A stretch of DNA of 31,155 bases from a virus. A program made the position numbers and the translations under genes. The notes under the pieces are model-generated. The model ran no database searches and had not been told where the DNA came from. It saw only the letters and a list, made by a program, of their open reading frames with translations. Below, piece by piece: positions 8,773 through 27,019 of the stretch; position 1 is the stretch's first letter; each line of letters begins with the position of its first letter. The stretch spans positions 1 through 31,155 of IMG/VR virus record IMGVR_UViG_3300027796_000280; one strand, given 5' to 3'.

Positions 8773-8914
8773 GCGCGTCTCCGGAGATAGATTGATGCTT
8801 GGGTATCGTCCGGAGTTAGCGGAATATGGCTGGCCGCTTGAGTCCGCCCACGGAAACGTGGACATCTCCATGGAGGAGTTTGCCGCCCTCCCCGAACGAC
8901 GCCTTCCCCGCGCG

Positions 8915-10255: not shown

Positions 10256-11798
10256 CCATCCGGCCTCGCGTCTCTGCCAAAAGGAGGCACTTGGTCATGG
10301 CCGACTGAAATTTGTCGAAGGGAAGACCCGGGAAGATCTCGTCAAGCTTCTCCTCGAACTCGGCGAACGACGCGGACTTGTCGGCCAGATCCAGGATGGG
10401 CTGCACCAGCTGCTCGATCTGCCCTTGGAGTTCCTCGGGAGCCAGCTCTCCGAACAACTCCTTGAGGACATGCTCACCGTTGACGGCTTCTGGTCCGGGC
10501 TCGGCGAAGGAGGGACCGACCAGTCCCGTATTCCGGACCGCCATTGATCCGTTCGACGGAGCGTTGTCCACGCCGCTGAGGTGATCGGCGGCAATGCCGT
10601 ATGTGTCCGTGAAGTAGGATGCGGTGAATCGCGCTCCCACCTCGTAGAGCCCCTTGTCGCGCTCCAGACGTCCCGTCTGCATGTCCTCGGGCATCTGGAT
10701 GACAAACCGCGGCATGGGACCGGGCAGGCTGTTGATCTCCCAGATCCAGGAGATCAGCTCGTTCATGCAGCTCTCGACCAGGTTGGCGTCGTCGAGCGCC
10801 AGGTCGGCGCGCACCTCGTTGTGGACGGTCGCGGCCGCACGGGAGCCACTCGTGCCTTGGATCTCGGTCGAGAGCGTTTCACCCAGCCATGCCTTCGACA
10901 TCTCGGAGTCGGCCCATTTTACCAGCTCTGGAAACGGAAGGGCGCCTCCCGCCTTGGTTTCAAGCAGCTCCACGGTGTTGTTTTCGGGGATCACCACTGC
11001 GGCAGCGCGGACCATCGCCTCCAGCTTGTAGAGGAGATCGAGCTTCTCTCCGTCGGCGGTGGATCCAGGAACCTTTCCAACCACCTTGGGAAGCCCGAAT
11101 TTCTCGCAGAACATCATCCAAAACTTGAGGCCGCCCCGCTTGAAGGCCAGAGGCCAGAAGCATTCTGACAAGATGGGTCGACCGTAGGGGTTGAGGTAGT
11201 CGGATCGGTGGCGGGCAATCAAAAGTTTGCGCGGCGGCACCAGAACGCGCGCACCCTGGTCGGTGATGAATCGCGTCTCACCGCGCAGTCCAAACGTGAA
11301 CCACTCCTGCGGGCGATCCACAACGCGCACCGGAACAATCCAATCGCTTGCTTCCCATACCACTTCCTGCACAGAGTAGCCCATGCCGGTCGCGGTCATG
11401 AATTGGTACGTCATCTCGCGGACATCGAGTTCGTCAAAAATTGTCTGCAGTCGTGCGGTCGCTCTCGCCGACGCGGAACCTCGTTCGATCGACCAGGGAC
11501 GCGCCCGCACGGCAGCGAAGCGTTTTTGCATCACCGACGAGAGGTGCCCGTCCACCATTTTGCGATAGGTCGAGATGGACTTGCCCTCGGCACGCAGGAT
11601 CGGGTCGGGATTGGCGAGACCGGTGATGTCGGCCATCGACACGAGCACCTGGCGGACGGTCAATTCGTCGCCAAGCCCTCCGACCAGGGCGGATTCCGCG
11701 AAGGCGTGCCCCCCGGAAGGGGGGGGCGGGGGGGTGGAGGGGGCCAAATCCCCCCCTTTGGACCCTTTTCGAGGCGTTTTTGGGTGCTTTCTGGACAT
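10242..11798 (-). CDS. Mu gp29-like portal protein (DUF935)
   Basis: Portal protein forming the dodecameric DNA channel at one head vertex. The 518 aa show the DUF935 pattern: DPILRAEGKSISTYRKMVDGHLSSVMQKR near the N-terminus, MGYSVQEVVWE, DRPQEWFTFG, KLLIARHRSDYLNPYGRPILSE split across the middle, and LGETLSTEIQGTSGSRAAATVHNEV further on. GGAGGAG lies about 8 nt before the ATG. Residues ~15-35 are an odd Pro/Gly-rich stretch encoded by long C/G homopolymers that probably varies between relatives. It overlaps gpF downstream and is preceded by an unusual extra ORF instead of directly by the terminase. Confidence 0.93.
   Translation of the reverse strand: MSRKHPKTPRKGSKGGDLAPSTPPPPPSGGHAFAESALVGGLGDELTVRQVLVSMADITGLANPDPILRAEGKSISTYRKMVDGHLSSVMQKRFAAVRARPWSIERGSASARATARLQTIFDELDVREMTYQFMTATGMGYSVQEVVWEASDWIVPVRVVDRPQEWFTFGLRGETRFITDQGARVLVPPRKLLIARHRSDYLNPYGRPILSECFWPLAFKRGGLKFWMMFCEKFGLPKVVGKVPGSTADGEKLDLLYKLEAMVRAAAVVIPENNTVELLETKAGGALPFPELVKWADSEMSKAWLGETLSTEIQGTSGSRAAATVHNEVRADLALDDANLVESCMNELISWIWEINSLPGPMPRFVIQMPEDMQTGRLERDKGLYEVGARFTASYFTDTYGIAADHLSGVDNAPSNGSMAVRNTGLVGPSFAEPGPEAVNGEHVLKELFGELAPEELQGQIEQLVQPILDLADKSASFAEFEEKLDEIFPGLPFDKFQSAMTKCLLLAETRGRMDAHD
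11709..11756. repeat. clustered G and C homopolymer tracts in the portal 5' end
   Basis: On the plus strand the stretch contains C6 (11709-11714), G8 (11719-11726), G7 (11728-11734), G5 (11739-11743) and C7 (11750-11756). The G tracts could fold into a quadruplex on the plus strand, and G5/C7 could pair as a hairpin. It encodes the Pro-rich N-terminus of the portal. Confidence 0.7.
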
Positions 11799-12280
11799 CA
11801 GACGTCTCCTCCGGAGGGGGTACCACCCACGAATCGCCGGAATGCCGTTAGATCCCCGTTTAAATTTTGCCGCAGAGGGGTCGCCGCTACATCCGGGTAC
11901 CCTGAAATCTCGGCGCCTTTTAGGGGCATCTCTGCGCCCGGAAGAGGCATCGCCACTTTTTGGGGCTCGGGCGGGGTGACCGCCTGGGGGGTAGCGGGTG
12001 CGGTTTTTGTCTCAAAACCCCGTAATCGGATCGCGGTTTGTCTCAAAACCCCGCGAAACCTGTGAGGCGTTTGAAGATCGTTTAAAGAATTTAAAGACCG
12101 ATCTTCAAATCTCCGTCGAGCGCAATGCGTCGTTCCCGAATCGCGGGCGACGTGATGATCTCCCCGTGTTCCCGGCGCCACTCTCCGCAATCGCAAGCCG
12201 TGAATGGTGAACGTCTCGTCGAAACGCGCGTTGTGCATGGGTGAATTCTCCGAGAAATCGGGCTCGACGGAATCCGTCAT
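11798..12280 (-). CDS. hypothetical ORF (160 aa) inserted between terminase and portal
   Basis: In Mu the large terminase and portal genes adjoin; here 478 nt separate them. One minus frame fills the gap exactly: its ATG at 12280 overlaps the terminase stop as ATGA, and its stop overlaps the portal ATG as TGATG, which strongly suggests translational coupling. The predicted protein is basic and low in recognisable structure, with a segment read from two direct DNA repeats (LRQTAIRLRG) and a Pro/Ala-rich stretch (APATPQAVTPPEPQ). Alternatively the gap could be a non-coding regulatory insert that happens to be open. Function unknown. Confidence 0.5.
   Translation of the reverse strand: MTDSVEPDFSENSPMHNARFDETFTIHGLRLRRVAPGTRGDHHVARDSGTTHCARRRFEDRSLNSLNDLQTPHRFRGVLRQTAIRLRGFETKTAPATPQAVTPPEPQKVAMPLPGAEMPLKGAEISGYPDVAATPLRQNLNGDLTAFRRFVGGTPSGGDV
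12001..12053. repeat. two direct copies of a CGGTTT..GTCTCAAAACCCCG element
   Basis: CGGTTTTTGTCTCAAAACCC at 12001-12020 and CGGTTTGTCTCAAAACCCCG at 12034-12053 are the same element, 33 bp apart, differing by a 2-nt deletion. Each contains short inverted arms (GGTTT/AAACC) around TGTCTC or GTCTC. A third, shorter match (TTTGTCTCAAACC) is on the minus strand at 48-60, near the transposase end. Confidence 0.6.
12070..12109. repeat. perfect 11-bp inverted repeat around an AT-rich TTTAAAG spacer
   Basis: TTTGAAGATCG (12070-12080) and CGATCTTCAAA (12099-12109) are perfect complements flanking an 18-nt AT-rich spacer with two TTTAAAG copies. The element stands out from the GC-rich surroundings. 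It could be a transcription-factor site, a promoter or attenuator for the downstream portal-gpF-gpG genes, or an RNA hairpin. Confidence 0.6.
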
Positions 12281-13983
12281 TCCATCGCCGCCCATGAATC
12301 GAGATGACCGCGTCCGAATGGCTGCGGATCAAACGGGGTTGTCTCGGCGCGCAGCGGAAGGGACCTCGCGTCAGCAGGACCAGTGTCACCGGTACGCGCC
12401 GCCGCGATCGCATGGGCCAGCGCCCAGAAATGATCGCCGTGGCCATTCTCGTCGTCGCGCTTGGCGTCGTAGCGCGCCTTGTTGGTGATGCTCACGGTGC
12501 GTTGCACCGAGTGGAGGCTTTCGCGTTGCACTGGATCGACGGGGATCAGCACCCCCGAATCCTCGAACTCGCGAACCATGCGCGTGGCGAGTGCGTCCTT
12601 GATGCCTTCGGTCACATGGACGGAGTCGATCATATAGGACCCGAAGCGCTCCAGCGTATCTTCACCGAGCCCCGCGCCTAGTCCCGTGGCGTCGATCGAG
12701 GCGCGCACCATCTTCGGATGCGAAAGCAATAGCCACAGCACGTCCTTCTGCCGTTGGAACCGCGCCTTCTCCATCACGACCAGGTGGCGCGCGTGGAGCA
12801 CCATCCCGCACAGCTCCAACACGTAGATCACCGTGAGATCGCGCTTGCGGCCCACGTCCATGCCCAGGTAGAGCGGACCCGTGACCTGGTTGAGTCCGAG
12901 AATGTTGTCGCGCTCGACCGACTCGATGAGCGAGTACGGAAGCAGCGCATGGGCTTCGTCCTGCGCTCGGCACATGTACTCCTCTTGGTACTGGGCCTCG
13001 TTCAGGCATTGCCGACGCAAGCGACGCAGGTACCCGGCACGCTCGGCATGGGTAGTGGGGCGCTTCTTCACACGGTCATACATGCCGTCGGCCACTGCCT
13101 CTTCAATCGTTACCGTGTGAACCGACCAGTCCGATTCGCTGGTACCGAGCCCCTCGTCTTCGTCGAGGTCGTCGAGGTTGGCGCGATCGAACTCGGGGTT
13201 CCCCAGTTTGTAGAAGGCGCACCCCTTCCCGTTTTGGGTGGAGAGGATGCGGATGGGGTAGCCCCATGCGCCCGCGACGGGCTGCGCCGCCTTCCACAGA
13301 TCGCGGTCGCGGCCATGATGCGCGAACTCATCGAGCACCACCTTTCCACCCTTGGATCGGAAGCCGCTGGGGTTGGAGGACAGGATCGTGATCTTAGAAC
13401 CGTTGTGGAATACCACCACCGTGGCCGTGGCCTCATCGGTATCGGCAACCTGGAGCGTCTCCAGAGTGCCCTCGCCATCGCCTAGGGCATCTTCGGCCAC
13501 CACGACAGTCTGGACGATGAGGTTCGCCACTTCCACCCACATGCGCACGTAGTCGAGGTATTCCAGGCCCGCGGTCTTATCAGCAGAGGAGAACCACACC
13601 TTCAGGCCGGGGCGATCCACGCAGTCGAGGACATCCTCCAGGGATTGAGTCCAGGTACCTCCGATGCGGCGGCTCTTCACCAGCTTCTTCATGGGTGAGC
13701 GATCGCGCAGGTACCTGATCTGGTAGGGAAGCAGCAGATCGGCGAACGGTGCCAGGTCCGAGGCGTCGCGCAGTTCGGCCTCTGGAGCACCATCCTTGGA
13801 GACGTGCGACTTCCGCGTCTTGGGCAAATTCTCCGACCCTGCATTGCCGTCTCGCTTGGGGACCGTTCGGGATGCTTTCGAAGCAGAAGCCTTCACACCC
13901 TTCGAGGGGTGACTTTTCTTCGTAGAGTGGGGTGTCCCGCTTTTTGTGACAGACACCTTTGCCGACTTCGAAGGGCGGCTCAT
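12277..13983 (-). CDS. large terminase subunit (Mu gp28-like)
   Basis: ATP-driven DNA packaging motor with a headful nuclease. The start at 13983 (MSRPSKSAK) overlaps the small-subunit stop by ATGA, giving 568 aa. The ATPase region has KSRRIGGTWTQS (about 103-114) and a Walker B VVLDEFAHH (D217, E218). The RNase H-like nuclease has D376 (GMDVGRKRD), D431 (ASIDATGLG) and D517 (GHGDHFWALAHA). The P-loop lacks the usual lysine after the glycine (GGT instead of GKT), as in terminases where an upstream Arg/Lys substitutes. The first ~65 residues are an unusual Lys/Ser/Ala-rich basic tail. Confidence 0.94.
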   Translation of the reverse strand: MSRPSKSAKVSVTKSGTPHSTKKSHPSKGVKASASKASRTVPKRDGNAGSENLPKTRKSHVSKDGAPEAELRDASDLAPFADLLLPYQIRYLRDRSPMKKLVKSRRIGGTWTQSLEDVLDCVDRPGLKVWFSSADKTAGLEYLDYVRMWVEVANLIVQTVVVAEDALGDGEGTLETLQVADTDEATATVVVFHNGSKITILSSNPSGFRSKGGKVVLDEFAHHGRDRDLWKAAQPVAGAWGYPIRILSTQNGKGCAFYKLGNPEFDRANLDDLDEDEGLGTSESDWSVHTVTIEEAVADGMYDRVKKRPTTHAERAGYLRRLRRQCLNEAQYQEEYMCRAQDEAHALLPYSLIESVERDNILGLNQVTGPLYLGMDVGRKRDLTVIYVLELCGMVLHARHLVVMEKARFQRQKDVLWLLLSHPKMVRASIDATGLGAGLGEDTLERFGSYMIDSVHVTEGIKDALATRMVREFEDSGVLIPVDPVQRESLHSVQRTVSITNKARYDAKRDDENGHGDHFWALAHAIAAARTGDTGPADARSLPLRAETTPFDPQPFGRGHLDSWAAME

Positions 13984-14402
13984 CGCAGGCCCAGCTTGTC
14001 GCGGATCTTGCGTTGGATCTCGTCTCGTCGCGCTTCCGGCGTGACAGGTCCGGGCTTGGGCGGATTCTTTGCCGCGTATCTCCAAGCATTGATCGCGGCT
14101 TTCACGATCTTGTCCAGGTTGGAGACTTGCTTGGGATCAAGGTTCCCGTTCAGGAGATCGTCCTTTATCTGGCGGGCCACGACCGTTCCCAGGCTCATCA
14201 GTTCGGCATGGAAGGTCTCGTCGTTGTTGGTGAGCGCGGCGCGCTGCTCATCCCAAGTCCCCTTGCCGTCCAGGTTGTCGGTCGACCAGGTCTGGAGCGA
14301 TCGTTCCGAAATCCCCAGGCGCTCTCCGATGGCACGCTTGCTCAGGTGGTGGATCACGTAGAGGATGCGCGCCTGCTCGTAGAGGTCTTCGCGCTTGGTC
14401 AT
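13980..14402 (-). CDS. small terminase subunit with helix-turn-helix
   Basis: Likely DNA-recognition subunit of the packaging terminase. The 140-aa product begins MTKREDLYEQARILYVIHHL and has a helix-turn-helix at ~19-40 (KRAIGERLGISERSLQTWS), reminiscent of DUF1804 and gpP-like small terminases. A helical C-terminal half follows (DKIVKAAINAWRYAAKNPP) with a basic end (RRDEIQRKIRDKLGLR). Both ends overlap neighbours by the ATGA arrangement, directly upstream of the large subunit, where Mu has gp27. The start at 14402 is preferred over longer frames because it fits this coupling. Confidence 0.83.
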   Translation of the reverse strand: MTKREDLYEQARILYVIHHLSKRAIGERLGISERSLQTWSTDNLDGKGTWDEQRAALTNNDETFHAELMSLGTVVARQIKDDLLNGNLDPKQVSNLDKIVKAAINAWRYAAKNPPKPGPVTPEARRDEIQRKIRDKLGLR

Positions 14403-14698
14403 GGACCAGTCCGTCCGCGACGCTGCGCCTCGATCTCTTCGAGCTTCAGGAGTCGGTCGTGGCAGCATGCTTCGATGGTCTGTCGCGCATCCTGCGCGTC
14501 GGCGCGATACTGGCCGAACAGCTGTTCCCAACGCTTTTCATCGGCAGCCTGGCGCTCATCCCACCGACGCGACTCCGACTGGTAGTACAACAAGAGAAGG
14601 ATCGCGAGCACCGCGCCGACGCCGAGTTGCCCGAGTGTTTTCGCGAAGAACTCTTTGCCAAGCGAGTTTACGCTGTTAGATTCGTTGGTGGTGGCCAT
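14399..14698 (-). CDS. small membrane protein with coiled coil, possible inner spanin
   Basis: First gene of the leftward head operon, 99 aa. A polar N-terminus (MATTNESNSVNSLGKEF) leads into one membrane helix (LGVGAVLAILLLLYY, ~27-42). A charged coiled coil follows (SESRRWDERQAADEKRWEQL, then DAQDARQTIEACCHDRLLKLEE). One N-terminal anchor followed by an external coiled coil is the layout of Rz-type inner spanins, which help disrupt the envelope at lysis, and Mu places lysis genes just before its packaging genes. No partner outer-spanin lipoprotein is visible nearby, so the role is tentative. No good Shine-Dalgarno sequence precedes the ATG. Confidence 0.7.
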   Translation of the reverse strand: MATTNESNSVNSLGKEFFAKTLGQLGVGAVLAILLLLYYQSESRRWDERQAADEKRWEQLFGQYRADAQDARQTIEACCHDRLLKLEEIEAQRRGRTGP

Positions 14699-14818: not shown

Positions 14819-16003
14819 ATGCCCAAACGTGCTCCACTTTCCGTGACGCCAGCCAATCCGTGGGTGAAGATCCTTTACCCCGGCACCCACACCTCGCTGT
14901 CTGGCAAGGCTGTGACTTTCACACCTGCCGACGTCTCGGCGCGCGTGGACTCCATCAAGGCGCAGCTCGCCACGGGCTACATGCCGCCCGCCGTCGTAGG
15001 GCACCCTCGCCACGACAGCCCTCGCGTGGCCTCGGTCGTCGACGTCAAGCTCCAGGACGGAGCGGCCTACCTGCGCGTCGACGAGCTGACGCCCGAGTTT
15101 GCGGAGTCATGCCGCAAGGGCGAATACAAGTACAATAGCCCAGCCTTCTACGCTGACGGCCGTCTGCGCCACCTCGGAATCCTTGGCGGCTGGAACTCAG
15201 CCATGAAGGATCAGCCTGCGCTTGAATTCGGCGAGGGAATGTTCGCGGAGTCCGATGCGGCATCGGGATGCACCGCCGACGACGTCCAGATGTTTGGCTG
15301 CGAAGCCGACTGGTGCAACGTCGCCGGGGGGTTCCTTTCCCGCCTGGTCTGGACGCTGCGCTCTCTGGGCTCCAACCTGCGCAGCCAGCGCGAGGCCTTG
15401 ATCGAAAAGGAAGGCGTCGAGGCCGCCGACAAAGCGATGCCCGACTGGACCATCAAGGAGCTCGAGAGCCTCGAAGCTCCCGACCTTCCGTCGCTGAACA
15501 GTTGCGACGACGGCGCCACCCCCAGTCCCGCATTTGGCGACGGCACATCCAGCACCCCAGTACCCGCCCCGGCCGCCACAGCAACCCCTCCAGCAGCCGT
15601 CACTGTTGTGCCCGCAACGCCCGGGCTCACCGTTCCGTCGCCCCGCGAGGCGGAACTGCAAGCCCAACTCGAGGCCACCAAGAAACAGTTGACCGCCATC
15701 CAGGCCGAGGCCGCGGGCAAGGCCTTCGGCGAACGCTTGGACAAGGCTGCCGACGAGGGTCGCATGTCGCCTGTCCTGCGTGGCCATCTGGAGCACCTGT
15801 ACGCCGACTTCACCTCAGGCGACCTGGTGTTTGGCGAGGGCGACCCGATTCCCGCCAACCTGGAGCGCATCATCGATGCCCTACCTCAGATCGTCGCCTT
15901 CGGCGAGCTGGGACTGGGACAGCCCCCAGCCTCTTCCATCAACCCACTCGCCGCTGACGCCTTGTCGCGGCACCCACACCCACCCACCGGAGCAACCGCA
16001 TGA
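14819..16003 (+). CDS. Mu gpI-like head maturation protease/scaffold
   Basis: Protease of the Mu-like I protein family, which processes the prohead. In the 394 aa, PPAVVGHPRHDSPRVASVVD (~56-75), then ELTPEFAESCRKGEYKYNSPAFY (~89-111, the serine region) and LRHLGILGG (~116-124) follow the family pattern. A Pro/Ala-rich linker (~235-265) leads to a coiled coil (REAELQAQLEATKKQL, ~271-286) and a helical end typical of a scaffold domain. In Mu an internal start makes a separate scaffold (Z); a similar internal product is possible but not shown. Its stop overlaps the decoration-protein start by ATGA. Confidence 0.88.
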   Translation: MPKRAPLSVTPANPWVKILYPGTHTSLSGKAVTFTPADVSARVDSIKAQLATGYMPPAVVGHPRHDSPRVASVVDVKLQDGAAYLRVDELTPEFAESCRKGEYKYNSPAFYADGRLRHLGILGGWNSAMKDQPALEFGEGMFAESDAASGCTADDVQMFGCEADWCNVAGGFLSRLVWTLRSLGSNLRSQREALIEKEGVEAADKAMPDWTIKELESLEAPDLPSLNSCDDGATPSPAFGDGTSSTPVPAPAATATPPAAVTVVPATPGLTVPSPREAELQAQLEATKKQLTAIQAEAAGKAFGERLDKAADEGRMSPVLRGHLEHLYADFTSGDLVFGEGDPIPANLERIIDALPQIVAFGELGLGQPPASSINPLAADALSRHPHPPTGATA

Positions 16004-16650
16004 CCGCTTTCACCGTCCCCAAGAGCGTCGCCGACGTCCTCCTGGTCGAATCTTCCACAGGTCTCTCCCGCGAGACTGGCATCATCGAAATCAACACCAC
16101 CGTTGCCGTCGGGCAGGTTTTGGGCAAGAAGACCACCGGCACGACCACCAGCGCAGCCAAGGGCGGTGGCAACACGGGCAACGGCACGCTCACCATGGAC
16201 GCCTCCACCCCGACGCTCGCCGGTGCCAAGTTGGGCGTGTACCAGGTGCGCTTCACCGCCGCGACCACGTTCATGGTCATCGACCCCGACGGCTACGTGG
16301 TCGGAGGTGGAGGCATCGTTGGCACGACCTGGTCGTCGAAGGTGAAGTTCCAGACCGCGGCGGGCGGCACGCCTTGGGTCGCTGGCGACGGCTTCGACCT
16401 CACCGTCGCTGCGGGCAACGGCAACTTGGTGCCCATCTCCGCCTCTGCCTTGGACGGCTCCGCCGTCCCCTGCTCGGTGGCCCTCGACGCGGTTGCATCG
16501 CAGGCGACTACGGCCAAGATCGGCACGGTCGCCCGCCAAGCGATACTTGCCGCCAGCGGCCTTGCCTGGAACGGCCTGACCACCCCGCAGCAGAATGCGG
16601 CCATCGCCATCATGCAGGCCAACGGCCTGCGCGTGCGCGCCTCCATCTGA
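16000..16650 (+). CDS. lambda gpD-like head decoration protein
   Basis: Head decoration protein that would cap capsid lattice positions and stabilise the filled head. The N-terminus (RETGIIEINTTVAVGQVLGKK) is the lambda gpD-type beta region, and the C-terminus (NAAIAIMQANGLRVR) the usual end. Between them a Gly/Thr-rich beta domain (~55-140, including LAGAKLGVYQVRFTAATTF and GGTPWVAGDGFDLTVA) is inserted, making 216 aa against about 110 for lambda gpD. Such insertions occur in larger decoration proteins. It lies between protease and capsid genes, the normal place. Confidence 0.82.
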   Translation: MTAFTVPKSVADVLLVESSTGLSRETGIIEINTTVAVGQVLGKKTTGTTTSAAKGGGNTGNGTLTMDASTPTLAGAKLGVYQVRFTAATTFMVIDPDGYVVGGGGIVGTTWSSKVKFQTAAGGTPWVAGDGFDLTVAAGNGNLVPISASALDGSAVPCSVALDAVASQATTAKIGTVARQAILAASGLAWNGLTTPQQNAAIAIMQANGLRVRASI

Positions 16651-16713
16651 TCCTGACCCTCCCCAACGTCCTTTCCACCTGACCTACCTGCCATCCCTCC
16701 ACTGGAGTTTCAA

Positions 16714-17844
16714 ATGAAGTTCAAGAGCGCTTCCTGGGGTCTTCAAATCCTCGCCCTGACCCTGGTCTTGTGCGCCGTTGGCGCCTGGGCCGGAATCCTG
16801 CCCAACCACGTACTGGGATTGCCCCTGGGGCTGGACCATTCCATGCTTTCCGCCATTCCCCTGGTCGGCCTGCCCGACATGTTCACGGTGACAAGCCTCA
16901 CCGACTCGATCACCAAGCTCCCCTACACGCCGACGAAGATTGGTGATTCCGGGCTCTTCAGCGAAACAGGAATCACCACTCGATCGATCACGATCGACGA
17001 GCAGCAGGGACGACTCGTCCTGGTCCCGAATACCTCCGTCAACGATGATCCTGTGCCCCAGACACGCAATGCCCGCAAGAGGCGCGTGCTCTCGGTGACG
17101 CACATCCCGATTCAGGAGACTATTCGGCCCGAAGAACTCCAGAACCTGGTACCGTTCGGACAGGACACCATCGAGGCCCAGCAGGCGCGCGTCATCAACG
17201 ACCGCCTGGCGGCCATGAAGGCCAATCTGGACGTCACCCGCGAATGGCAGCGCCTGGGTGCCATCTGCGGGCAGATCCTGGACGCCGACAGCTCGGTCAT
17301 CCTCGATCTCTTCGCCGAGTACGGCATCACCAAGCGCACCCAGAGCGTGGCACTCTCGGTTGCAGCCACCGACGTGCGAGCCGCGATCATGCAGGCCAAG
17401 CGCGCAGGCGAGGCAGCTCTCGGCGGCGTGATCGTCAAGGGCTGGCGCTGCTACTGCGAGCCCAGCTTCTTCGATTCCTTCGTGGGCCACGCCAACGTCC
17501 AGAAGGCGTTCGCCAACTACCAGGAGGCACAGGACCGCATCGGCGGCGACCTACGCACCGGGTTCACGTTCGGCGGCGTCGAGTTCATGGAATACAACGC
17601 GACCGTGTCGGGCCAGCAGTTCATCCCGACGGGCAAGGCCAAGCTGTTCCCCATCGCTCCGGGCATCTTCCGCATGTACAATGCCCCGGCCAACTACAAC
17701 GAGACGGTCAACACGCTGGGCATTCCGTATTACGCCAAGTCCGAGCCGCGTGAACTGGGCAAGGGCTGGAAGATCGAGGCCCAGACCAACCCGTTGGCTA
17801 TCTGCACCTACCCCGAGACCCTCACGGAATTCACGGCGACCTGA
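16714..17844 (+). CDS. lambda gpE-type major capsid protein with signal-like N-terminus
   Basis: Major capsid protein of the lambda gpE family (HK97 fold). From residue ~56 the sequence follows the family closely: FTVTSLTDSITKLPYTP, IGDSGLFSETGITT, HIPIQETIRPEELQ, and VNTLGIPYYAKSEPRELGKG, ending NPLAICTYPE. The first 55 residues are foreign to the family. A short basic start (MKFKSASW) is followed by a 17-residue hydrophobic core and AWA at 24-26, exactly like a secretion signal. GGAG lies 7 nt before the ATG at 16714, while later ATGs (16843, 16879) lack a good site, so the extension is probably translated. The stop overlaps the next start as TGATG. Confidence 0.93.
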   Translation: MKFKSASWGLQILALTLVLCAVGAWAGILPNHVLGLPLGLDHSMLSAIPLVGLPDMFTVTSLTDSITKLPYTPTKIGDSGLFSETGITTRSITIDEQQGRLVLVPNTSVNDDPVPQTRNARKRRVLSVTHIPIQETIRPEELQNLVPFGQDTIEAQQARVINDRLAAMKANLDVTREWQRLGAICGQILDADSSVILDLFAEYGITKRTQSVALSVAATDVRAAIMQAKRAGEAALGGVIVKGWRCYCEPSFFDSFVGHANVQKAFANYQEAQDRIGGDLRTGFTFGGVEFMEYNATVSGQQFIPTGKAKLFPIAPGIFRMYNAPANYNETVNTLGIPYYAKSEPRELGKGWKIEAQTNPLAICTYPETLTEFTAT

Positions 17845-18317
17845 TGTACTGCGCCGTCGACGATCTTCGCACCGCCCAGCCCGATCTCCGTCTGATCGAA
17901 ACGACCGACGATGCCCATCCCAACGCGGATGGATCGTTCGGGGTCGCAATCGCAGAGGACATGATCGATCTGTCATGCGGTGTCATCGACGGATACATCG
18001 GCTCTCGCCTCACGCTACCCCTACCCGTGGTCCCGCGTGTGCTCACCAAGATCGCTGTGGACCTGACCCTCCACGCGCTCTACGAACGCATCGGGGCCAC
18101 GGGACCAGGGACCCCCATGGAGAAGCGTCGCGACAATGCGATAGCCCTCCTGCGCGACATCGGTTCCGGAAAAGTCTCTCTGGGCCTTTCCGCGATCGAG
18201 TCGGAAGCAATCGATCCGCCCCCAGGGCGCGCCCAAGTCTCAGCCGGTATGGCTCAGTTCACCATGGAATCAATGACCTCCATGGACACCATGAATTCGC
18301 TCGGAGGCAATTGGTGA
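17844..18317 (+). CDS. Mu gp36-like protein (DUF1320), head-tail connector region
   Basis: Member of the DUF1320 family (Mu gp36), thought to act at the head-tail joint. The family pattern is clear: MYCAVDDLRTAQPDLRLIE at the start, DMIDLSCGVIDGYIGSRLTLPLP (~40-62), KIAVDLTLHALYER, and NAIALLRDIGSGKVSLGL (~103-120). A Met/Ser-rich C-terminal extension (MAQFTMESMTSMDTMNSLGG) is less usual. It starts inside the capsid stop (TGATG) and its end overlaps the next gene as GTGA, so translation is coupled. Confidence 0.88.
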   Translation: MYCAVDDLRTAQPDLRLIETTDDAHPNADGSFGVAIAEDMIDLSCGVIDGYIGSRLTLPLPVVPRVLTKIAVDLTLHALYERIGATGPGTPMEKRRDNAIALLRDIGSGKVSLGLSAIESEAIDPPPGRAQVSAGMAQFTMESMTSMDTMNSLGGNW

Positions 18318-18844
18318 GCATCGTCGGAAATCACGATATCGAGCAGGCGATCTACAGCCTGTTCACAGGGGCAGATCGCCGATTTGCAAAAGTCGATCTG
18401 GGAAGTTTCCCCGATGTCATCAAGCCCGGATTGAATGTTGCTGTATCCTCCGGGACATTCGCTCGAGAATCCATGGCGGAATTCCGCCAAGACGTGAATA
18501 TCGTATTGCTTGTCGCGGTCAAGAATCTGCGTTTGGAAATTGAACGACGCAAATTGGCACATCCGCTGATCGAATACGTGATCCAAACCCTGGTGGGATC
18601 CGAGCTGAATCTCGATATCGAGATGATCGAGCCCACCGGATGGAGCGAACAGACCTCGAAGGACCATTTCACCGCTGGTGAAAGCGTCTTTGAGGTGCGT
18701 TTTTCGACCGCTTACAGAATCTCTGCGGCGCCGCCTTCCACGGCGCAAGAGCACGCTCTCACCGAGATCCTCAACGAGTACCGCCTGCACCAGGAGAATC
18801 CTCCGACAGTCAGCGATACCATACCCATCGGAGCCGCCCCATGA
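18314..18844 (+). CDS. Mu gp37-like protein (DUF1834)
   Basis: A 176-aa protein in the gp37 position. It starts at GTG 18314, with GGAGG 6 nt upstream and a 4-nt overlap with the previous stop. It has the DUF1834 appearance: an opening helix (HDIEQAIYSLFTG), a beta-rich middle (QDVNIVLLVAVKNLRLEIER), and a helix plus strand (HPLIEYVIQTLVGSELNLD, then FEVRFSTAYRI). In Mu-like phages this protein belongs to the tail-terminator or connector set between gp36 and the sheath. The identification rests on pattern and gene order. Confidence 0.78.
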   Translation: MSIVGNHDIEQAIYSLFTGADRRFAKVDLGSFPDVIKPGLNVAVSSGTFARESMAEFRQDVNIVLLVAVKNLRLEIERRKLAHPLIEYVIQTLVGSELNLDIEMIEPTGWSEQTSKDHFTAGESVFEVRFSTAYRISAAPPSTAQEHALTEILNEYRLHQENPPTVSDTIPIGAAP

Positions 18845-19140
18845 GCAGAGGCATTCTCACCGTCGTGGCCGTGGGCGACGATCCTGTTCCCATGGAAGGC
18901 CTGGTCGGCTGGATCGGCAAAGAGCCCGTCCAGGTGCCGAACTCGTTCTACTACCGCCGCCAGATCACCGACGGCTCGCTCGCGGAAGCGCCCGAGACCA
19001 CCCCTGCAGGCTCCTCCAGCCCGGCACCGGCTCCAACCGCACCAACTACGACCACCGCACGCCGAGGCCGCGACCAGGCAGCCTCGGCTCCCGACACCGA
19101 CCCCACCATGTCCACCGGGACTGAGGAGACTGTGAAATGA
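18841..19140 (+). CDS. Mu gp38-like protein (DUF2635) with long disordered tail
   Basis: Small protein before the sheath gene. Residues 1-50 fit DUF2635: PVPMEGLVGWIGKEPVQVPN, then SFYYRRQITDGSLAEA. The remaining half is a Pro/Ala/Thr-rich disordered extension (TTPAGSSSPAPAPTAPTTTT). Its role is unknown even in Mu, but its place directly before the sheath is conserved. Both ends overlap neighbours by ATGA, with GGAG 8 nt upstream of the start. Confidence 0.82.
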   Translation: MSRGILTVVAVGDDPVPMEGLVGWIGKEPVQVPNSFYYRRQITDGSLAEAPETTPAGSSSPAPAPTAPTTTTARRGRDQAASAPDTDPTMSTGTEETVK

Positions 19141-20552
19141 CGATTTCTGTCAGCACCATTCCAAGCAACCTGCTCAAGCCGGGCCAGTATTCCGAGCTGA
19201 ACACCCTCTCCGGCCTCAAGGGCTTGCCTGCCAACACGCAGAAGCTGCTCCTGATCGGCCAGATGACGGCTGCCGCCACCGTGGCCGCTGCCGTGCCTAC
19301 CCAGGTCTTCAGCCCTGCCGAGGCCGCAGCCTACTTCGGGCCAGGATCGATCCTGCACCGCCAGGCACTTGCCGCATTCGGCGTCAACCGCAACCTCACC
19401 CTCTGGATGGTCGGCCAGGCCGATGGTGCGGGCACTGCCGCGACGGGCACTGTCGTCTTCACCGGTACCGCCACCGGTGCGGGATCATTCGTGCTACTTG
19501 TGGGCGATGACCGCGTGGAAGTGCCGTTCGCGGTCGCCCAGACTGCCGCAGGCATGGCCACCGCCGCCATCGCTGCGATCAACGCCAATACATCGCTTCC
19601 CGTCACCGCGACGGCCGCGACAGGAACCGTCACGATCACCGCCAAGAACAAGGGCACCGTCGGGAACCAGATCGCACTGACTGGTGCCATCTCCGGCGCT
19701 GGCCTGACCCAGGTCACCGCCGCGGCCCTGACCGCAGGCGCCACCGACCCGACGCTTCAGACCACGCTTGATGCCATCTTCCCGGGCCAGTTCCACATCA
19801 TCAACTACTGGAGCCCTCTCCAGGCGGACCTCACGTCGTTGGCCGCACACCTGGTCTCGGTGTCGTCGTCGCTGGAACAGCGTCCTGGTCGCGGCATTGT
19901 CGCGGCGCTTCCGCAGTCGATCCTGTCGGCTGTCGTGACTCTGGCCACCACGACCAACTGCGAGCGTCTCACCCTACCATACCTGCGAGGCTCCATCAGC
20001 CCCGCTTACGAGATCGGCGCCTCCGTCGCGGCCGCCGTGGCGTCCGAGGAGAATCCGGCGCGTCCGCTCGACGGCGTATTGCTGCCTGGTGTCACCATGC
20101 CCGTGACCTCGTCCCTGCTGTCGCGCACCGAGCAGGAGACGCTCCTGGCCGCGGGCGTGACCCCCCTGGAAGCGTCCGGACAATTCGTATCCATCGTGCG
20201 CCTGGTCACCACGCGCACGGTCACCAACGGAGCCACCGACCTCACTCTGCTCGACAGCGCGACGATCGCAACGCTCGACTACCTGCGGTTCGCGTGGAAC
20301 ACGCGCCAGAAGATCCTCTTCCAACAGATGGCCCTGAACGACCGGGTCCTGTCGGCCATCCGCGAGGCCGCCGTGTCGCTGTGCCTCGAACTGCAGGATG
20401 CCGAACTCCTGCAACACGTCGGCGACTACAAGGCGCAATTCATCGCTGAGAGAGACCCGAACTATCCAGGGCGTGCGCGGGTCTCGATTCCGGCACCCAT
20501 CGTTCCCGGTCTGCACCAGACCTACACCCGCATCGACCTCCTGGTCCTCTAA
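19137..20552 (+). CDS. tail sheath protein (Mu gpL-like)
   Basis: Contractile tail sheath, the sleeve that drives the tube through the envelope. The 471 aa start with ISVSTIPSNLLKPGQYSELN, as in the Mu gpL family, and have NTQKLLLIGQM and FGPGSILHRQALAAFGVN in the first 90 residues. Residues ~95-200 are a Thr/Ala/Val-rich beta domain (GTVVFTGTATGAGSFVLLVG onward). The C-terminal core has TLPYLRGSISPAYEIGASV and a final DPNYPGRARVSIPAPIVPGL, the conserved handshake end. Tube and chaperone genes follow, as expected. Confidence 0.93.
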   Translation: MTISVSTIPSNLLKPGQYSELNTLSGLKGLPANTQKLLLIGQMTAAATVAAAVPTQVFSPAEAAAYFGPGSILHRQALAAFGVNRNLTLWMVGQADGAGTAATGTVVFTGTATGAGSFVLLVGDDRVEVPFAVAQTAAGMATAAIAAINANTSLPVTATAATGTVTITAKNKGTVGNQIALTGAISGAGLTQVTAAALTAGATDPTLQTTLDAIFPGQFHIINYWSPLQADLTSLAAHLVSVSSSLEQRPGRGIVAALPQSILSAVVTLATTTNCERLTLPYLRGSISPAYEIGASVAAAVASEENPARPLDGVLLPGVTMPVTSSLLSRTEQETLLAAGVTPLEASGQFVSIVRLVTTRTVTNGATDLTLLDSATIATLDYLRFAWNTRQKILFQQMALNDRVLSAIREAAVSLCLELQDAELLQHVGDYKAQFIAERDPNYPGRARVSIPAPIVPGLHQTYTRIDLLVL

Positions 20553-20563
20553 GGAGCACATCC

Positions 20564-20923
20564 ATGTCTGCTATTTCGAAAATCATCCTGAGCTGGGAAG
20601 GCAAGGAGATCAAGGAGTTCGCGAGCTTCACCGAGAAGTCGGTTAAGCATGGCGAGCAGGTTGCTCTCGTCAACGGCACCACCTTCTGTGAACTGACTCC
20701 CCAGTACGCCTTCGAACTGGAGTACGTCGAACCCATCGAAGGGCCGTTCGACTTCCAGGCGACCGTGGCAACCCCCGCCACCGTGACGATCCTCTACCAG
20801 GGAAAGCGCAAGCGCGTGTACCGTGGCGTACAGTTGCTCGAAGAGGGCGACGCCAAGGTGGACGGCAAGTCTGCCCGCACCCAGTCGTACACGTTCATGG
20901 CTACCGACCGGGATGATTCGTGA
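20564..20923 (+). CDS. tail tube protein (Mu gpM-like)
   Basis: Inner tail tube protein, a small beta-barrel subunit stacked inside the sheath. At 119 aa it has the expected size. It shows alternating strands (ISKIILSWEGKEIKEFASFT; FDFQATVATPATVTILYQGK; TQSYTFMATDRDDS) and lacks cysteine-rich or membrane features. AAGGAG lies 8 nt before the ATG. Position between sheath and chaperone genes is diagnostic. Confidence 0.87.
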   Translation: MSAISKIILSWEGKEIKEFASFTEKSVKHGEQVALVNGTTFCELTPQYAFELEYVEPIEGPFDFQATVATPATVTILYQGKRKRVYRGVQLLEEGDAKVDGKSARTQSYTFMATDRDDS

Positions 20924-21423
20924 TGAGTCTCCTCGAACGCGTCCGCGCTGGCACCAAGAACTTCCAGATCATCGCTTGGCCTGGCACCAAGGTGAAGGTC
21001 AAGATGCGTGTGCTATCGCGTAGCGAGTTCCAGGAGGCGAACTTCGCAGCCTACCAGCATTTTCGCCAGTACGAGATCGCGGTCGAGTCCCACACGGTCG
21101 AGGCTTACGAAGACGAGAAGACTCTCCAGTTGCTGTGGAGGGCATTGTCCGAGATCGATGGCGACGATGCAGGAAAGCCAGTTGCGGCCAACATCGACGT
21201 ATTCCGAGCCGAGGTCACCAAGGACGAGATCAACGCATTGGTGGAATGCTACGGAATTCTGGAGGAGGAGTGCTCTCCCAACCAGGATCGTATGCCGACG
21301 GAAGAGTTCGACGCATTCCTGGAAACCCTAAAAAAAAAGCCCGACGAGATCCTTGGATCAGTGCGCAGTATCGTCTTTGCGAAAAGGCTGCTGCGTTCTT
21401 TGGTGAGTCCTCCAGAGATCTGA
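20923..21423 (+). CDS. tail assembly chaperone, short form (Mu gp41-like)
   Basis: Product of the first reading frame in the chaperone region, 166 aa from ATG 20923 (a GTG at 20920 is an alternative). Features include FQIIAWPGTKVKVKMRVLSR near the start, helical acidic middle parts, and SVRSIVFAKRLLRSLVSPPEI after the shift site. In long-tailed phages this protein and its frameshifted longer form wrap the tape measure during tail assembly. The gene overlaps the tube stop as TGATG. Confidence 0.82.
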   Translation: MSLLERVRAGTKNFQIIAWPGTKVKVKMRVLSRSEFQEANFAAYQHFRQYEIAVESHTVEAYEDEKTLQLLWRALSEIDGDDAGKPVAANIDVFRAEVTKDEINALVECYGILEEECSPNQDRMPTEEFDAFLETLKKKPDEILGSVRSIVFAKRLLRSLVSPPEI

Positions 21424-21611
21424 CCGACGCCCAGTGGTGTTTGCTCTTCGTGCTTGAATCGGAGGAGCAGGAGAGACGCCTTCACCCAGATCGCCAGGTA
21501 ATCCTGGAGGATGACGATGGACACAGTCAAACTTGGGATCGAGCTCAGTACCGCGGGACTCAAGGCAGGAGCCAAGCAAGCCGAAAAAGATCTCCGCGAG
21601 CTTGGTACTGA
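20923..21611 (+). CDS. tail assembly chaperone, -1 frameshift fusion (gp41/gp42-like)
   Basis: Predicted long form made by slipping back one base at A AAA AAG (21333-21339) and continuing to the stop at 21609-21611, about 229 aa in all. The shifted frame adds LCEKAAAFFGESSRDLTDAQ and CLLFVLESEEQERRL, protein-like sequence unexplained by the zero frame. It runs about 95 nt into the tape-measure gene. Equivalent fusions (lambda G-T; a -2 shift in Mu) are a conserved feature of tail assembly genes. Coordinates are given as one span although the product is joined at 21339. Confidence 0.75.
21330..21339 (+). other. programmed -1 frameshift slippery site
   Basis: A run of nine A (21330-21338) followed by G gives the heptamer A AAA AAG in phase with the zero frame (codons AAA at 21334 and AAG at 21337). 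This is one of the most efficient bacterial -1 slip sites. A GGAGGAGGAG stretch lies roughly 60-70 nt upstream, rather far to act as a stimulator, and no strong downstream stem is obvious. Confidence 0.8.
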
Positions 21612-23832
21612 GGCGAAGGGTGTTGGGCGCGATTTCGACAAGCTGGCAACCGAGGGAAACCAGGCTGAAGAGACGATCAAGGGCGTTGGAAATGCGGCGG
21701 AACGCGCAGATCGGCAGACCGCCGGACTCAGCTCCAGGCTGAAGAGCGGAGCCGCCAGCCTCGGTCTTTCATCCAATGCCGTTCGCGGAATGGGGAGGTT
21801 GATCTCGAGCGGATCGGACAAGCTCGCCAACCAGTACACCGCCCTGGCGGGAAGCGCTGGAATCGGACTTGCGTTGAACAAGCAGATGCAGCTCAACGAC
21901 CAACTTACCCAGATGGGAATCGCGGCTCGCGATGCGAATGGAATGATCGACGGGAAGGTCTTCTCCACTTGGTTCAAGGACACCAAGACCGAGATCATGA
22001 ACGTCTCCAAAGCGACCGGGCAAGGCGCCGAGGATCTCGCGGCAGGCATGCAGGCGGTCGTTCAGCGCACCGGAAATATCAAACTCGCATCCGACAACTT
22101 GAAGCTCATGGGAGAGACGGCAACAGCGTCCGGATCTGCTGTCGAAGATGTTGGCGCGCTCATTGCCAACCTTGGATCCAAGGCCGGGATCGACGGTGCT
22201 ACCCAGATGCGTCAAGCCATTACGCTTCTGTTAGCCCAAGGCAAGAGTGGCGCCTTCGAACTCAAGGACATGGTCACGAACGGAGAGCGCCTATTCTCGG
22301 TGATGTCCCTCTTTGGAAAGGGTGGGCAAGACGGCCTGAAGTCGTTCGGTGCGTTTGTACAAATGGCGAGGACAGGCACAGGAAGCGCAGACAATGCAGC
22401 GACCGCGATCGAACGCCTGGGTGCAACTATGGCCAATACCAAGAACATCGAGAAGCATCTCGCAGGCGTTGGAATCCATGTGAAGCTCGATCCCAAAGCC
22501 GATGCGGCGACCAACATCAAGAAGGTCATCACCGCATCGAAAGGTGATCTCCAAAGATTGACCGCGAGCCAGGCTTTTGGCGAAGAGGGAATCCGTGCGC
22601 TCTCAACCTTCGCCAACGAATTCGCAGCGGGCAGAGGATTCCAGATGTTCGACGCCTTCCGTGACGCAGGCGGAGATATCACCAAAAACGTCATGTTGCA
22701 GGAGGACTTCAAGACGCGCGTCATGGATTCGGCATTCCAGATGAAGCGATTGATCGCCACGATGCGCGACTTTGGGGACAAGACGCTTTCTGGACCACTC
22801 TCGAAACTCACCAGCGCCATGGAGTGGATCAATAACCATGGAGAGCTGACAGAGAATGTCCTCAAAGGAATCACCGGCGCCATCGTCGCGCTTGGCGCCG
22901 CCGTGACGCTGGTGAAGCTGAATCAGTTGGCGCGTGATATTGGATCTGTTTTCAGAGGCGGAAAAACTGGAGGCGGATTGCCTGGAGCTGGCCCACTTGG
23001 AAGCGTCACCCATGTCTGGGTCGACAACATGGGCGTAGGAATGGGTGGTGCTGCGGCCAACAGCGCGGTCGCAGTCGAGGAAGCAGCAGCACAAGGCGCC
23101 GCGAAGTCTGGAGTGATGGCGCGCCTGTTTCCCACCTTCAGTAGTTGGATCAGTTCGTCGGGGGCATGGATCAAAGGGGGTATCAACTCTCTCAACACAT
23201 GGGGCAAAGGCATGGGCTATGCCGCCGAGCGCATGCTTGGTCGCACGGCTGCCGGCCGCATGGCGATGAACGCTGGATCCAGAGTGGCGGAATACGGTTC
23301 GCAAGCATGGCAACGATTCGCATGGGGAGGCGCTGGAGCAACAGCCAATCGCTTCTTTGGAAGCGTGCTCGGAAAAGCGGCTCCATTTGCAAAAGGCGTG
23401 ATCGGTGGGTCATTGCTGGCGCTTCCGATTGAGTACGCCATGAATGGTATCAGCTTGCGTTCGACCGCGGCGGGTCTGGGTAGCACTTTCGGCGGAACCC
23501 TTGGTGGTATGGGGGCGGCTGCGCTCGGGATTCCAACCGGAGGCATCGCATCACCCGCACTTGGATTTGCAGGGATGGTGGGAGGCGGTATTGCTGGACG
23601 CGAAGCGAGCCTCGCCATCTACGATCTCATCGCGAGGATGATCGCATCCAAGAATGAGGCGGATGCATCCGGGTCTGGAGCTGGCTTCGCACCCCAGTTC
23701 AATATTGGAGTCAACTTCGATGCGATGGGCCGACCGACGACTACCGTGGCTGGCCCTGGCGCTTCGATGATGCGCGTGAACTCGCAGAACCTTGGTCCTG
23801 CGTGGGGTCTCCCGATGATGATAAGCGGATGA
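21517..23832 (+). CDS. tail tape measure protein
   Basis: Sets tail length and probably helps DNA cross the inner membrane. It has 771 aa from ATG 21517, with GGAGG 6 nt upstream; the ATG at 21511 abuts the same site and is less likely. The N-terminal helical region has alternating Lys/Glu/Ala (AGAKQAEKDLRELGTEAKG). A hydrophobic helix lies at ~449-467 (LKGITGAIVALGAAVTLVK), and a Gly/Ala-rich membrane-like region near 660-720. Family experience (about 1.5 angstrom per residue) would give a tail of roughly 115 nm, an estimate only. Confidence 0.92.
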   Translation: MDTVKLGIELSTAGLKAGAKQAEKDLRELGTEAKGVGRDFDKLATEGNQAEETIKGVGNAAERADRQTAGLSSRLKSGAASLGLSSNAVRGMGRLISSGSDKLANQYTALAGSAGIGLALNKQMQLNDQLTQMGIAARDANGMIDGKVFSTWFKDTKTEIMNVSKATGQGAEDLAAGMQAVVQRTGNIKLASDNLKLMGETATASGSAVEDVGALIANLGSKAGIDGATQMRQAITLLLAQGKSGAFELKDMVTNGERLFSVMSLFGKGGQDGLKSFGAFVQMARTGTGSADNAATAIERLGATMANTKNIEKHLAGVGIHVKLDPKADAATNIKKVITASKGDLQRLTASQAFGEEGIRALSTFANEFAAGRGFQMFDAFRDAGGDITKNVMLQEDFKTRVMDSAFQMKRLIATMRDFGDKTLSGPLSKLTSAMEWINNHGELTENVLKGITGAIVALGAAVTLVKLNQLARDIGSVFRGGKTGGGLPGAGPLGSVTHVWVDNMGVGMGGAAANSAVAVEEAAAQGAAKSGVMARLFPTFSSWISSSGAWIKGGINSLNTWGKGMGYAAERMLGRTAAGRMAMNAGSRVAEYGSQAWQRFAWGGAGATANRFFGSVLGKAAPFAKGVIGGSLLALPIEYAMNGISLRSTAAGLGSTFGGTLGGMGAAALGIPTGGIASPALGFAGMVGGGIAGREASLAIYDLIARMIASKNEADASGSGAGFAPQFNIGVNFDAMGRPTTTVAGPGASMMRVNSQNLGPAWGLPMMISG

Positions 23833-25088
23833 TCGTAGCCAAACGCATCATCAAGATTGGCGGCTACGTCGTACCGTGCGCCGACGTCGACGAGGAGCGC
23901 AAGAGTTCCGTCGTGCGCCACGAGTACCCGGGGCATAACGGGGCAGACCTGGAGAGCCTCGGATGGAAAGCCACAGAGCACAAGCTCCGCGCTACGTTCT
24001 CGTCCTCCCAGTTGCCCGAATGGGATGGCATCAAAGGCGTTTTGAAGAACGGTTCAAGCGCCGTTCTTGAACACTGGGAATACGGCGACATCGACGTCCA
24101 TATCGAGTCCGTCCATATCAAGTACGACCACCGCATCAATACGGTGGAAGTGGACTTCAGCGTCATCGAAGACGGTATCGACAAGACCGTCACGATCCGG
24201 GTCTCCGCCAAGGACGTCGCCGCAGGCAAAGCGCAGCTGCTCGCCACTACCGCCGCGGATATCTGCGCGAAACAGTTCTACCCCGGCGCGGTACCAGCCC
24301 CCGACCTGAATGACCCAAACTGGCTGGAGAAGCTCGGCGATCTGGGCTCCAAGGCCAACGCCCTGGTACGCAGTCTTCGCACCGACACGCAACGCCTGGA
24401 CGGACTGATCGCCTCCGTGACCTACCCGGTGAGCGCTTCCCTCAACGCGCTCGAATTCGTGGCGGAGCTTCCCGGACAACTCGGCCTTCGTTTGGCCACG
24501 GTCATGGACCTGATGCAAGGACGCGTGGCAGGATCACCGGATCCCGCGACGATGGCCAACCACTTCCTGCGCGACCTGGATGCACTCGTCGCGACCTTCA
24601 ACGGCACAGCATCGGAAGGCTCTGCCAAGATCCTGGCCGCCTCGCAGGCGGCACAGACGGTCGCGAGTGTGATGGCCTCCGATGAAGACCGCCTACGCGC
24701 CATGCAGGCCTACGAGACCAACACGGCATTCGACGACTCGGGCCGCTGGGTGGCGCAAGCCGCTTCTCCGAAGTCGCTGCCCGCAACCGCGACGCAGATG
24801 GAAAATCTTGTCGGGCGTGCACGCCAGATCATCCAGGCCGCACGGACCTGGGTGGACGATCCCGCTGACCTCGATGTCTTGGCTTTGTCACTGCAGGACC
24901 AGTACCGCGACCGGCTCATCCAGTTCGAGCAGATCCGCGAGATCACGGTCGTGACGCCTACTCCATTACATCTGGTGTGCCACCAAAATGGACTCCCCTA
25001 CAACACCGCCGAACGCATCGCGCTTTTGAATCCCCAGATCAAGAACCCCACGTTCGCACAGGGGAGGATTCTGATCTATGCCTCGTGA
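23829..25088 (+). CDS. Mu gpN-like baseplate/DNA circularisation family protein
   Basis: Member of the Mu gpN family, whose N-terminal domain is the DNA-circularisation N-terminus; in the virion it is part of the baseplate hub near the tape measure. The start at 23829 overlaps the tape-measure stop by ATGA and gives 419 aa. Recognisable parts are IKIGGYVVPCADVDEERK, RHEYPGHNGADLESLG and EHKLRATFSS in the first 60 residues. The C-terminal end (VVTPTPLHLVCHQNG, ERIALLNPQIKNPTFAQGR, ILIYAS) is LysM-like in arrangement and typical of the family. Confidence 0.88.
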   Translation: MIVAKRIIKIGGYVVPCADVDEERKSSVVRHEYPGHNGADLESLGWKATEHKLRATFSSSQLPEWDGIKGVLKNGSSAVLEHWEYGDIDVHIESVHIKYDHRINTVEVDFSVIEDGIDKTVTIRVSAKDVAAGKAQLLATTAADICAKQFYPGAVPAPDLNDPNWLEKLGDLGSKANALVRSLRTDTQRLDGLIASVTYPVSASLNALEFVAELPGQLGLRLATVMDLMQGRVAGSPDPATMANHFLRDLDALVATFNGTASEGSAKILAASQAAQTVASVMASDEDRLRAMQAYETNTAFDDSGRWVAQAASPKSLPATATQMENLVGRARQIIQAARTWVDDPADLDVLALSLQDQYRDRLIQFEQIREITVVTPTPLHLVCHQNGLPYNTAERIALLNPQIKNPTFAQGRILIYAS

Positions 25089-26085
25089 TTCTATTCGCCT
25101 GATCATCGGCTCCTACGAGTTTACAGAGTGCCAGAGCATGGAGATGGTTTCCGATCTCTACAGTCCGTCCGGATCGTTCAATTTTTCGCTAGGACAGCGC
25201 ATCTCGGCCGCATCCGGAACACGGTGCAGCGTGCTGATCAACGGCCAGATGGAGCTGACCGGCGTCATCGATCAGGTCGAGGAGAGCCAGGACAAGTCCT
25301 CCCATACCTGGACCGTCACTGGACGATCCCTGGTTGGGCAGATCGAAGACTTCTACGTCACCTCCTGGATGTCTCCGCCGACGACGCTTGCCGCCGCGGC
25401 CAAGAAGTACCTGTCTGAGATCCCATACGTGAACGAGCTGCCATACTCGATCGAGGGTGACGATCCATCCGTCTCGCATGCGCGCCTCGATGTGGGCGAC
25501 ACGGCCTTCAAGCTGCTCAACGAGTTCGCCATGAACCGCGGCCTTCTCTTCTGGGCCAAGCCGGATGGATCGATCATTTTCGGGAAGGCTAAGCGCGACG
25601 GTATCCCGGCCTTTCGGATCACGGGCTCGGTGGTCGAGCAGCGCAGGCGCGTCGAGAACACATCGAAGCTTCACTCGGAAATCTGGATCGTGTCAGATTC
25701 TGATGAAGGCCACCGGACCCACATCGCGAAGAACGCGAGTGTGACGGTTCGGAAGCCCTTCGCCGCCCCCTACAATGGACACGACAGCAATGGCCTCGAA
25801 AAGCAGGCTGCCCAGTACCTGCGCCAGGAGAAGTTGTCCTCGTTCCAGCTGGAATACATGGTGAATGGATTCTCGCAAAACGGGAAGAACTGGACCATCA
25901 ACGAGCTAGCGCAAGTCGATGACGACGAGTTCGGATTGCAGGACACCTACCTGATCTGTCGCCGGACTTTCCGGTACACCCGCAATACAGGATCGACTGC
26001 ATCCCTGATTTTGTCGCCAATCCTCGCTGAAGACGTCTTCAAGGCGTATCCAAAGAAGCGCAAAAAAGAGGAGGAAGCATGGTGA
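25078..26085 (+). CDS. baseplate hub protein (Mu gpP-like)
   Basis: Tail hub protein of the Mu gpP/gp44 family (gpD/T4 gp27-like fold) that joins the tube to the spike. In 335 aa it shows RLIIGSYEFTECQSMEMVSD at the start, SVLINGQMELTGVIDQVEE, TVTGRSLVGQIEDFYV, DTAFKLLNEFAMNRGLLFWA (~141-160) and a closing RTFRYTRNTGSTASLILSP. It overlaps gpN by 11 nt, with GGGGAGG upstream, and the spike gene by 7 nt. Confidence 0.9.
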   Translation: MPRDSIRLIIGSYEFTECQSMEMVSDLYSPSGSFNFSLGQRISAASGTRCSVLINGQMELTGVIDQVEESQDKSSHTWTVTGRSLVGQIEDFYVTSWMSPPTTLAAAAKKYLSEIPYVNELPYSIEGDDPSVSHARLDVGDTAFKLLNEFAMNRGLLFWAKPDGSIIFGKAKRDGIPAFRITGSVVEQRRRVENTSKLHSEIWIVSDSDEGHRTHIAKNASVTVRKPFAAPYNGHDSNGLEKQAAQYLRQEKLSSFQLEYMVNGFSQNGKNWTINELAQVDDDEFGLQDTYLICRRTFRYTRNTGSTASLILSPILAEDVFKAYPKKRKKEEEAW

Positions 26086-26995: not shown

Positions 26996-27019
26996 CCACC
27001 CATCACCAACGGAGACAAC

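Follow-up and report, generated by a model that had tools for sequence, protein, structure and literature searches.

A signal-peptide-like extension on the shell protein of Mu-like phages and its possible role in prohead assembly

The major capsid protein of the window (the entire 31,155-nucleotide stretch of viral DNA analyzed here) has an ordinary core preceded by some 50 residues that are laid out like a secretion signal. Our analysis confirms, at the level of sequence, that this signal-peptide-like extension is real, and it points to a recurrent design, met in Mu-like head modules on capsids of two families, the gpE type and the B3 type. Since the same kind of leader recurs on otherwise different shell proteins, it probably has a role in shell building that has hitherto not been described. 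Tailed-phage shell proteins are regarded as cytoplasmic, and in the open-licence literature we found no account of a leader of this kind on any of them. The reading we favor, with a probability of a little over one in three, is that the extension serves as a hydrophobic pre-sequence that would direct capsid protein still being made to the inner membrane, where proheads would assemble, and would afterwards be removed or buried.

The capsid gene and its start site

The capsid gene lies at 16714-17844 on the plus strand and encodes 376 residues, starting MKFKSASWGLQILALTLVLCAVGAWAGILPNHVLGLPLGLDHSMLSAIPLVGLPDMFTVTSL. Residues 58-374 match the Pfam family PF03864 with 300.9 bits (cut-off 22.9) over profile positions 1-328 of 329. 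This whole-profile match joins the core (16879-17844) to lambda gpE and to the capsids of Curvibacter phage PCA1, Vibrio phages MAR and VHML, and Wolbachia phage WO, relatives in which a protease and a decoration protein D are encoded upstream, as in the window. The AF2 model of the capsid has a mean pLDDT of 79, and a Foldseek search with it returned the Bas63 capsid as the best match (E 6e-23) along with those of Sf14 and phiTE, lambda and other HK97-fold capsids ranking lower. On this evidence the window's major capsid protein is of gpE type (PF03864) and has the HK97 fold; its core is ordinary for the family, and its novelty is its N-terminus. Known members begin 6-14 residues before the conserved Phe57, and the window differs from them in having about 50 residues more than this canonical short N-terminus. 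Family similarity sets in at residue 58 (PF03864), 55 (phrog_29) or 56 (PDB capsids), which bears out an earlier note that had counted about 55 residues ahead of the gpE-family sequence.

The gene is read from the ATG at 16714. A Shine-Dalgarno motif, GGAG, stands at 16704-16707, 6 nt upstream of this codon, and pairing with the 16S tail amounts to -5.9 kcal/mol for Met1, -5.3 for Met44 (16843) and a weak -3.1 for Met56 (16879). The earlier note had rightly assigned the GGAG to the long form; the spacing it gave, 7 nt, was off by one, and its claim that this was the only good ribosome site was slightly too strong, since in the window Met44 pairs nearly as well as Met1. Across the nine extension-bearing genes described below, the long start is strongly favored (combined p 1.7e-6), whereas the internal Met pairs no better than random codons (combined p 0.18). 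The exception is L114, an IMG/VR phage in which the long start has a poor ribosome site and the internal Met41 a good one. The nine-gene comparison does not favor initiation solely at 16843 or 16879, with 16843 a possible start for the window taken alone. Val51 (GTC, 16864-16866) stands where relatives have their start Met (MNLQDLF...) in the alignment, and in the clearest cases, as here, the canonical start codon has been lost.

In all nine extension-bearing capsids a Met stands 4-13 residues ahead of the canonical start (3.7 expected; none of 20000 composition-preserving shuffles reaches nine), followed in each by a mildly hydrophobic stretch; in the window these are Met44 and MLSAIPLV (16843-16866), by which the extension joins the core at its canonical N-terminus. 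A Met so placed would suit a gene with two products, of which the long one, anchored in the membrane, would nucleate proheads, and the short one, soluble and begun at the internal Met, would make up most of the shell. The window, L114 and L322 have internal ribosome sites of fair quality, which agrees with this, as do the nested in-frame starts annotated in the protease/scaffold genes of phages B3 and KS10. Such an arrangement is nonetheless improbable, given the random-codon level of pairing at the internal Met and the lack of an internal ribosome site in L269, L335, L344 and L356. An internal start as the source of the main product was considered as well, and the nine-gene pairing test does not support it.

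An extension laid out like a signal peptide

The extension proper comprises residues 1-50 (16714-16863, plus strand), and the sequence upstream of the capsid core is MKFKSASWGLQILALTLVLCAVGAWAGILPNHVLGLPLGLDHSMLSAIPLVGLPD. Its in-frame codon log-odds of +21.8 is that of a coding region, the true coding windows of this phage having a mean of +21.2 and a 5th percentile of +8.7, against -21 and -16 in the two other forward frames. The +17 of reverse frame 0 we attribute to the shadow that a GC-rich coding frame usually casts. Beyond the coding score, the extension is marked out by a homologue in L114 and by its absence from most other relatives. A basic n-region, MKFK, leads into a hydrophobic core at residues 8-26 (16735-16791; the SWGLQILALTLVLCAVGAWA region), and the best 19-residue hydropathy of the extension is 2.2, a value that 0.02% of random open translations with matched base composition attain (p = 0.0002). 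As in a Sec-type signal peptide, the n-region is basic (charge +2), the h-region is hydrophobic (KD 2.39 over a 15-residue core) and small residues occupy positions -3 and -1 (A24 and A26), as they also do in L114. The putative signal-peptidase-like junction, A24-W25-A26/G27 (16783-16794), sits where the earlier note had read it within a signal-like layout, and aligns with A-F-A/A at the same place in L114. AF2 places a helix at residues 8-25 with low confidence (pLDDT mostly below 50 there), and the extension lacks a confident fold in the model of the window protein and in that of the B3-type capsid L335, a poor model (pLDDT 63) that we set aside.

This architecture is common to all nine extensions, in which an n-region of charge +2 or +3 is followed by a 15-residue core of mean hydropathy 2.4-3.1 and then by a loop. 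AxA-like sites lie in or after the core of the nine, that of L254 being poorly placed, with none at the expected position, and the putative junctions of L335 (TTVLA/DY) and L344 (DAASA/AC) have a textbook signal-peptide layout. The latter two especially would fit a capsid protein truly exported through Sec, in the manner of filamentous-phage coat proteins. Capsid export is unlikely, however, and we give it by far the lowest standing of the readings considered here: the genes for terminase, portal, protease, scaffold and tail belong to a tailed phage of the kind assembled in the cytoplasm, and the window and L254 hold one capsid gene per record, which leaves no alternative subunit to build the head.

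Carriers and spread of the extension

Homology of the extensions is clear for the window and L114 only; elsewhere the architecture is shared and common descent is unproven. The capsid of L114 is 47% identical to that of the window, and the two extensions align with z = 7.2 (a score that no shuffle out of 5000 attained; z 6.8 with shuffling inside hydropathy class), sharing the motifs S-x-W-G, LxLxLC-VGA(W/F)A and S-(M/V)-L-x-AI-x-x-x-GLPD. An independent assembly from a different sample is identical to L114 across 5,953 overlapping bases, including the start of the extension, so the L114 extension is not an assembly error. The similarity between the window and L254 extensions is suggestive (z 3.8, p 0.003), and the same shuffle test detected none between L114 and L254.

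The remaining carriers, all uncultured phages or prophages, are seven capsids of the B3 type (phrog_1005), a core family with only a remote relation to gpE. A protease-based scan led to L254, whose capsid starts MKKYLSIILRVGLCALCLLVLGSYMGITPLHLSVPGTMSAMAIMVGFDYAV and whose ATG is preceded by AAGGAG and lies a few bases past the preceding stop codon. Scans with the phrog_1005 family yielded L269, L322, L326, L335 (the prophage of an isolate, IMG record 2675903045) and L344, and L356, from the sampled bacterial genomes, was the one extension-bearing capsid of the Gammaproteobacteria sample. The L356 gene lies in genome G671, with no match in four other genomes of the same order. Among viral and genome contigs, single-sequence queries with the window capsid returned no matches and alignment-based queries succeeded. 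The search among relatives that the earlier note proposed thus yields one homologous extension and seven that are alike, and relatives do not all lack it.

No further extension locus turned up when 355 capsid matches (259 gpE and 96 B3-type, redundant) were surveyed in a uniform way, and some 340 other relatives, a count that includes redundant copies, are without the extension, among them every cultured homologue examined. The earlier note was also right to call the feature unusual, as all 14 cultured gpE homologues read lack it, with starts in the range before Phe57 given above and, in nearly all of them, a ribosome site of their own at the short start. Most relatives at 50-61% identity (Pseudomonas, Burkholderiales, IMG/VR) have no extension, nor do the capsids of Pseudomonas phage B3, KS10, Bise and TJ1, which begin 3-6 residues before the phrog_1005 core. 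In an Acidobacteriota sample, gpE-type matches begin at or near the canonical N-terminus, as judged by match start only, and in an Alphaproteobacteria sample the B3-type N-termini, read individually, show no extension. Apparent extensions in PCA1, Pacha, AhyVDH1, TJ1 and others, where tblastn matches start before residue 50, prove on the DNA to be chance matches that run through stop codons or lie ahead of the true start.

In the case of L335, the leader was kept with the phage backbone through an exchange of the capsid core. Between L335 and Pseudomonas phage Bise, the capsid genes have 73% DNA identity that sets in exactly at the canonical N-terminus (MAIRPFPIDP in Bise, GAIRPFPIDP in L335), where the L335 extension replaces the start codon, and upstream of this point no DNA can be aligned. 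The head module of the window is split, with the terminase, portal and F-like genes at 8284-14531 on the minus strand and the protease-to-tail genes at 14819-31155 on the plus strand. The same divergent arrangement is seen in L114/L256, L250/L251, L254, L210 and L269, and these phages form a coherent uncultured clade. Within the divergent-module clade the extension is present on gpE-type cores (window and L114) and on B3-type cores (L254 and L269), and absent from L248, L250/L251 and L210. On a protease tree (a quick tree of 80 rows), well-supported branches force at least five changes of extension state and clustering is weak (13 of 500 shuffles as low); the extension has been gained or lost repeatedly.

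So rare and patchy a distribution, with its five or more changes on the protease tree, would be in keeping with a functionless extension, tolerated where an upstream start happened to capture a hydrophobic segment. We give this little credence, given that one architecture is met nine times, that the homology of the window and L114 extensions persists (z = 7, or 6.8 within hydropathy class) at an overall identity of 47%, and that the canonical start codon is lost. Rather, the recurrence of the leader on two distantly related HK97-fold families, together with destruction of the start codon where the case is clearest, implies that it has been selected for a function in head assembly, either at the membrane or as a pre-domain.

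Membrane docking, an internal pre-domain and the neighboring genes

If the extension docks capsid subunits at the membrane, as we favor, the hydrophobic N-terminus of the nascent protein would be recognized as a membrane-targeting sequence, and subunits would be held against the inner membrane on its cytoplasmic side, the place at which a portal/scaffold initiator would grow the prohead. Translocation would be blocked by fast folding of the HK97 domain or by scaffold binding, and the head maturation protease, or less likely the host signal peptidase, would remove or free the extension before capsid expansion. We count in support of docking the coding character and start of the extension, its homology in L114, the nine-gene architecture and its following of the backbone, as well as a small membrane protein that co-varies with it within the clade (four versus three phages only). 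A precedent is that T4 proheads assemble attached to the inner membrane, which would explain a membrane-seeking head protein; against this, it is the portal gp20, together with gp40, that touches the membrane in T4, and not the capsid protein of the shell (PMC9958956). The rarity of the extension, the close relatives that manage without it and the failure to find the small membrane protein in extension-bearing phages of other clades also count against docking. So does the expectation that, once a basic N-terminus engages Sec, the remaining chain will cross the membrane.

The capsid proteins of HK97 and T4 carry cleaved N-terminal pre-domains, the delta domains, which are charged and coiled-coil-like. 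It is possible, and in our estimate nearly as likely as docking, that the extension is a hydrophobic domain of this kind, lying in the prohead interior, where the N-termini of HK97-fold subunits project, packing with scaffold or with other copies, and cut by the gpI-type protease at maturation with no membrane involved. Like the HK97 and T4 domains, it is N-terminal, tens of residues long and encoded near a head maturation protease, here two genes upstream (14819-16003), and the short Met-led stretch, whose distance from the canonical N-terminus is fixed in 9/9, could be a cleavage or docking site. Unlike them, it is signal-like and hydrophobic, its +2/+3 n-region and AxA-like sites exceed what such a domain would need, it has no confident AF2 fold, and a separate scaffold-bearing protease gene is kept, unchanged relative to extension-lacking phages. 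We rank membrane docking above a delta-like domain because the n-region is uniformly basic and AxA-like sites are usually present.

The protease gene bears on a further point, in that a delta domain serves as scaffold where there is no separate one. The gpI-type head maturation protease/scaffold of the window (14819-16003, plus strand; phrog_976, weak PF10123) is full length at 394 residues and colinear with those of phages whose capsid has no extension, to which about 380 residues align at 61-63%. The earlier suggestion that the extension stands in for a scaffold is thereby ruled out.

A membrane-inserting shell N-terminus, if true, would constitute a membrane-guided assembly route of tailed phages, driven by the shell protein and acquired several times. 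The wider proposition, that in a subset of Mu-like tailed phages shell subunits bring their own membrane-inserting N-terminus, with proheads on or around an inner-membrane patch, and that this arose several times, we consider doubtful. The old question of proheads on the membrane becomes testable through one short, deletable segment. There are consequences for annotation as well: a leader of this kind could be taken for a wrong start and cut off by gene callers and structure pipelines, and an extension-bearing capsid could be labeled as secreted by signal predictors.

The small membrane protein that co-varies with the extension is encoded at 14402-14698 on the minus strand and is predicted to have one TM segment, a coiled coil and a conserved C-terminal Cys-Cys. 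One type of this protein occurs in the four extension-bearing phages of the clade and another in the three without; holin/spanin-like scores are weak only. Since it was not found in extension-bearing phages outside the divergent-module clade, we treat it as a lead and not as main evidence.

Between the protease and capsid genes lies a head decoration protein (HDPD, PF02924; 16000-16650, plus strand) of about 216 residues, which has an insertion relative to the HDPD profile of about 115 residues; a similar enlarged form is found in L114 and L213. Downstream of the capsid gene is a Mu gp36-like head-tail adaptor (17844-18317, plus strand; PF07030, phrog_195). Farther along the plus strand, a tail-fibre-like ORF at 27811-31155, open at the end of the record, contains long, near-identical tandem protein repeats (AVALAWAGSASNLVAADGSTVAVSSLAAAAHTHPIADVTGLQTALDARL...). 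On the minus strand at 7076-8143, a gene looks by eye like a Dam-type (D12 class) adenine methyltransferase (IGGKRRLAKLILPHF...EPFCGAAALYF...DPPY).
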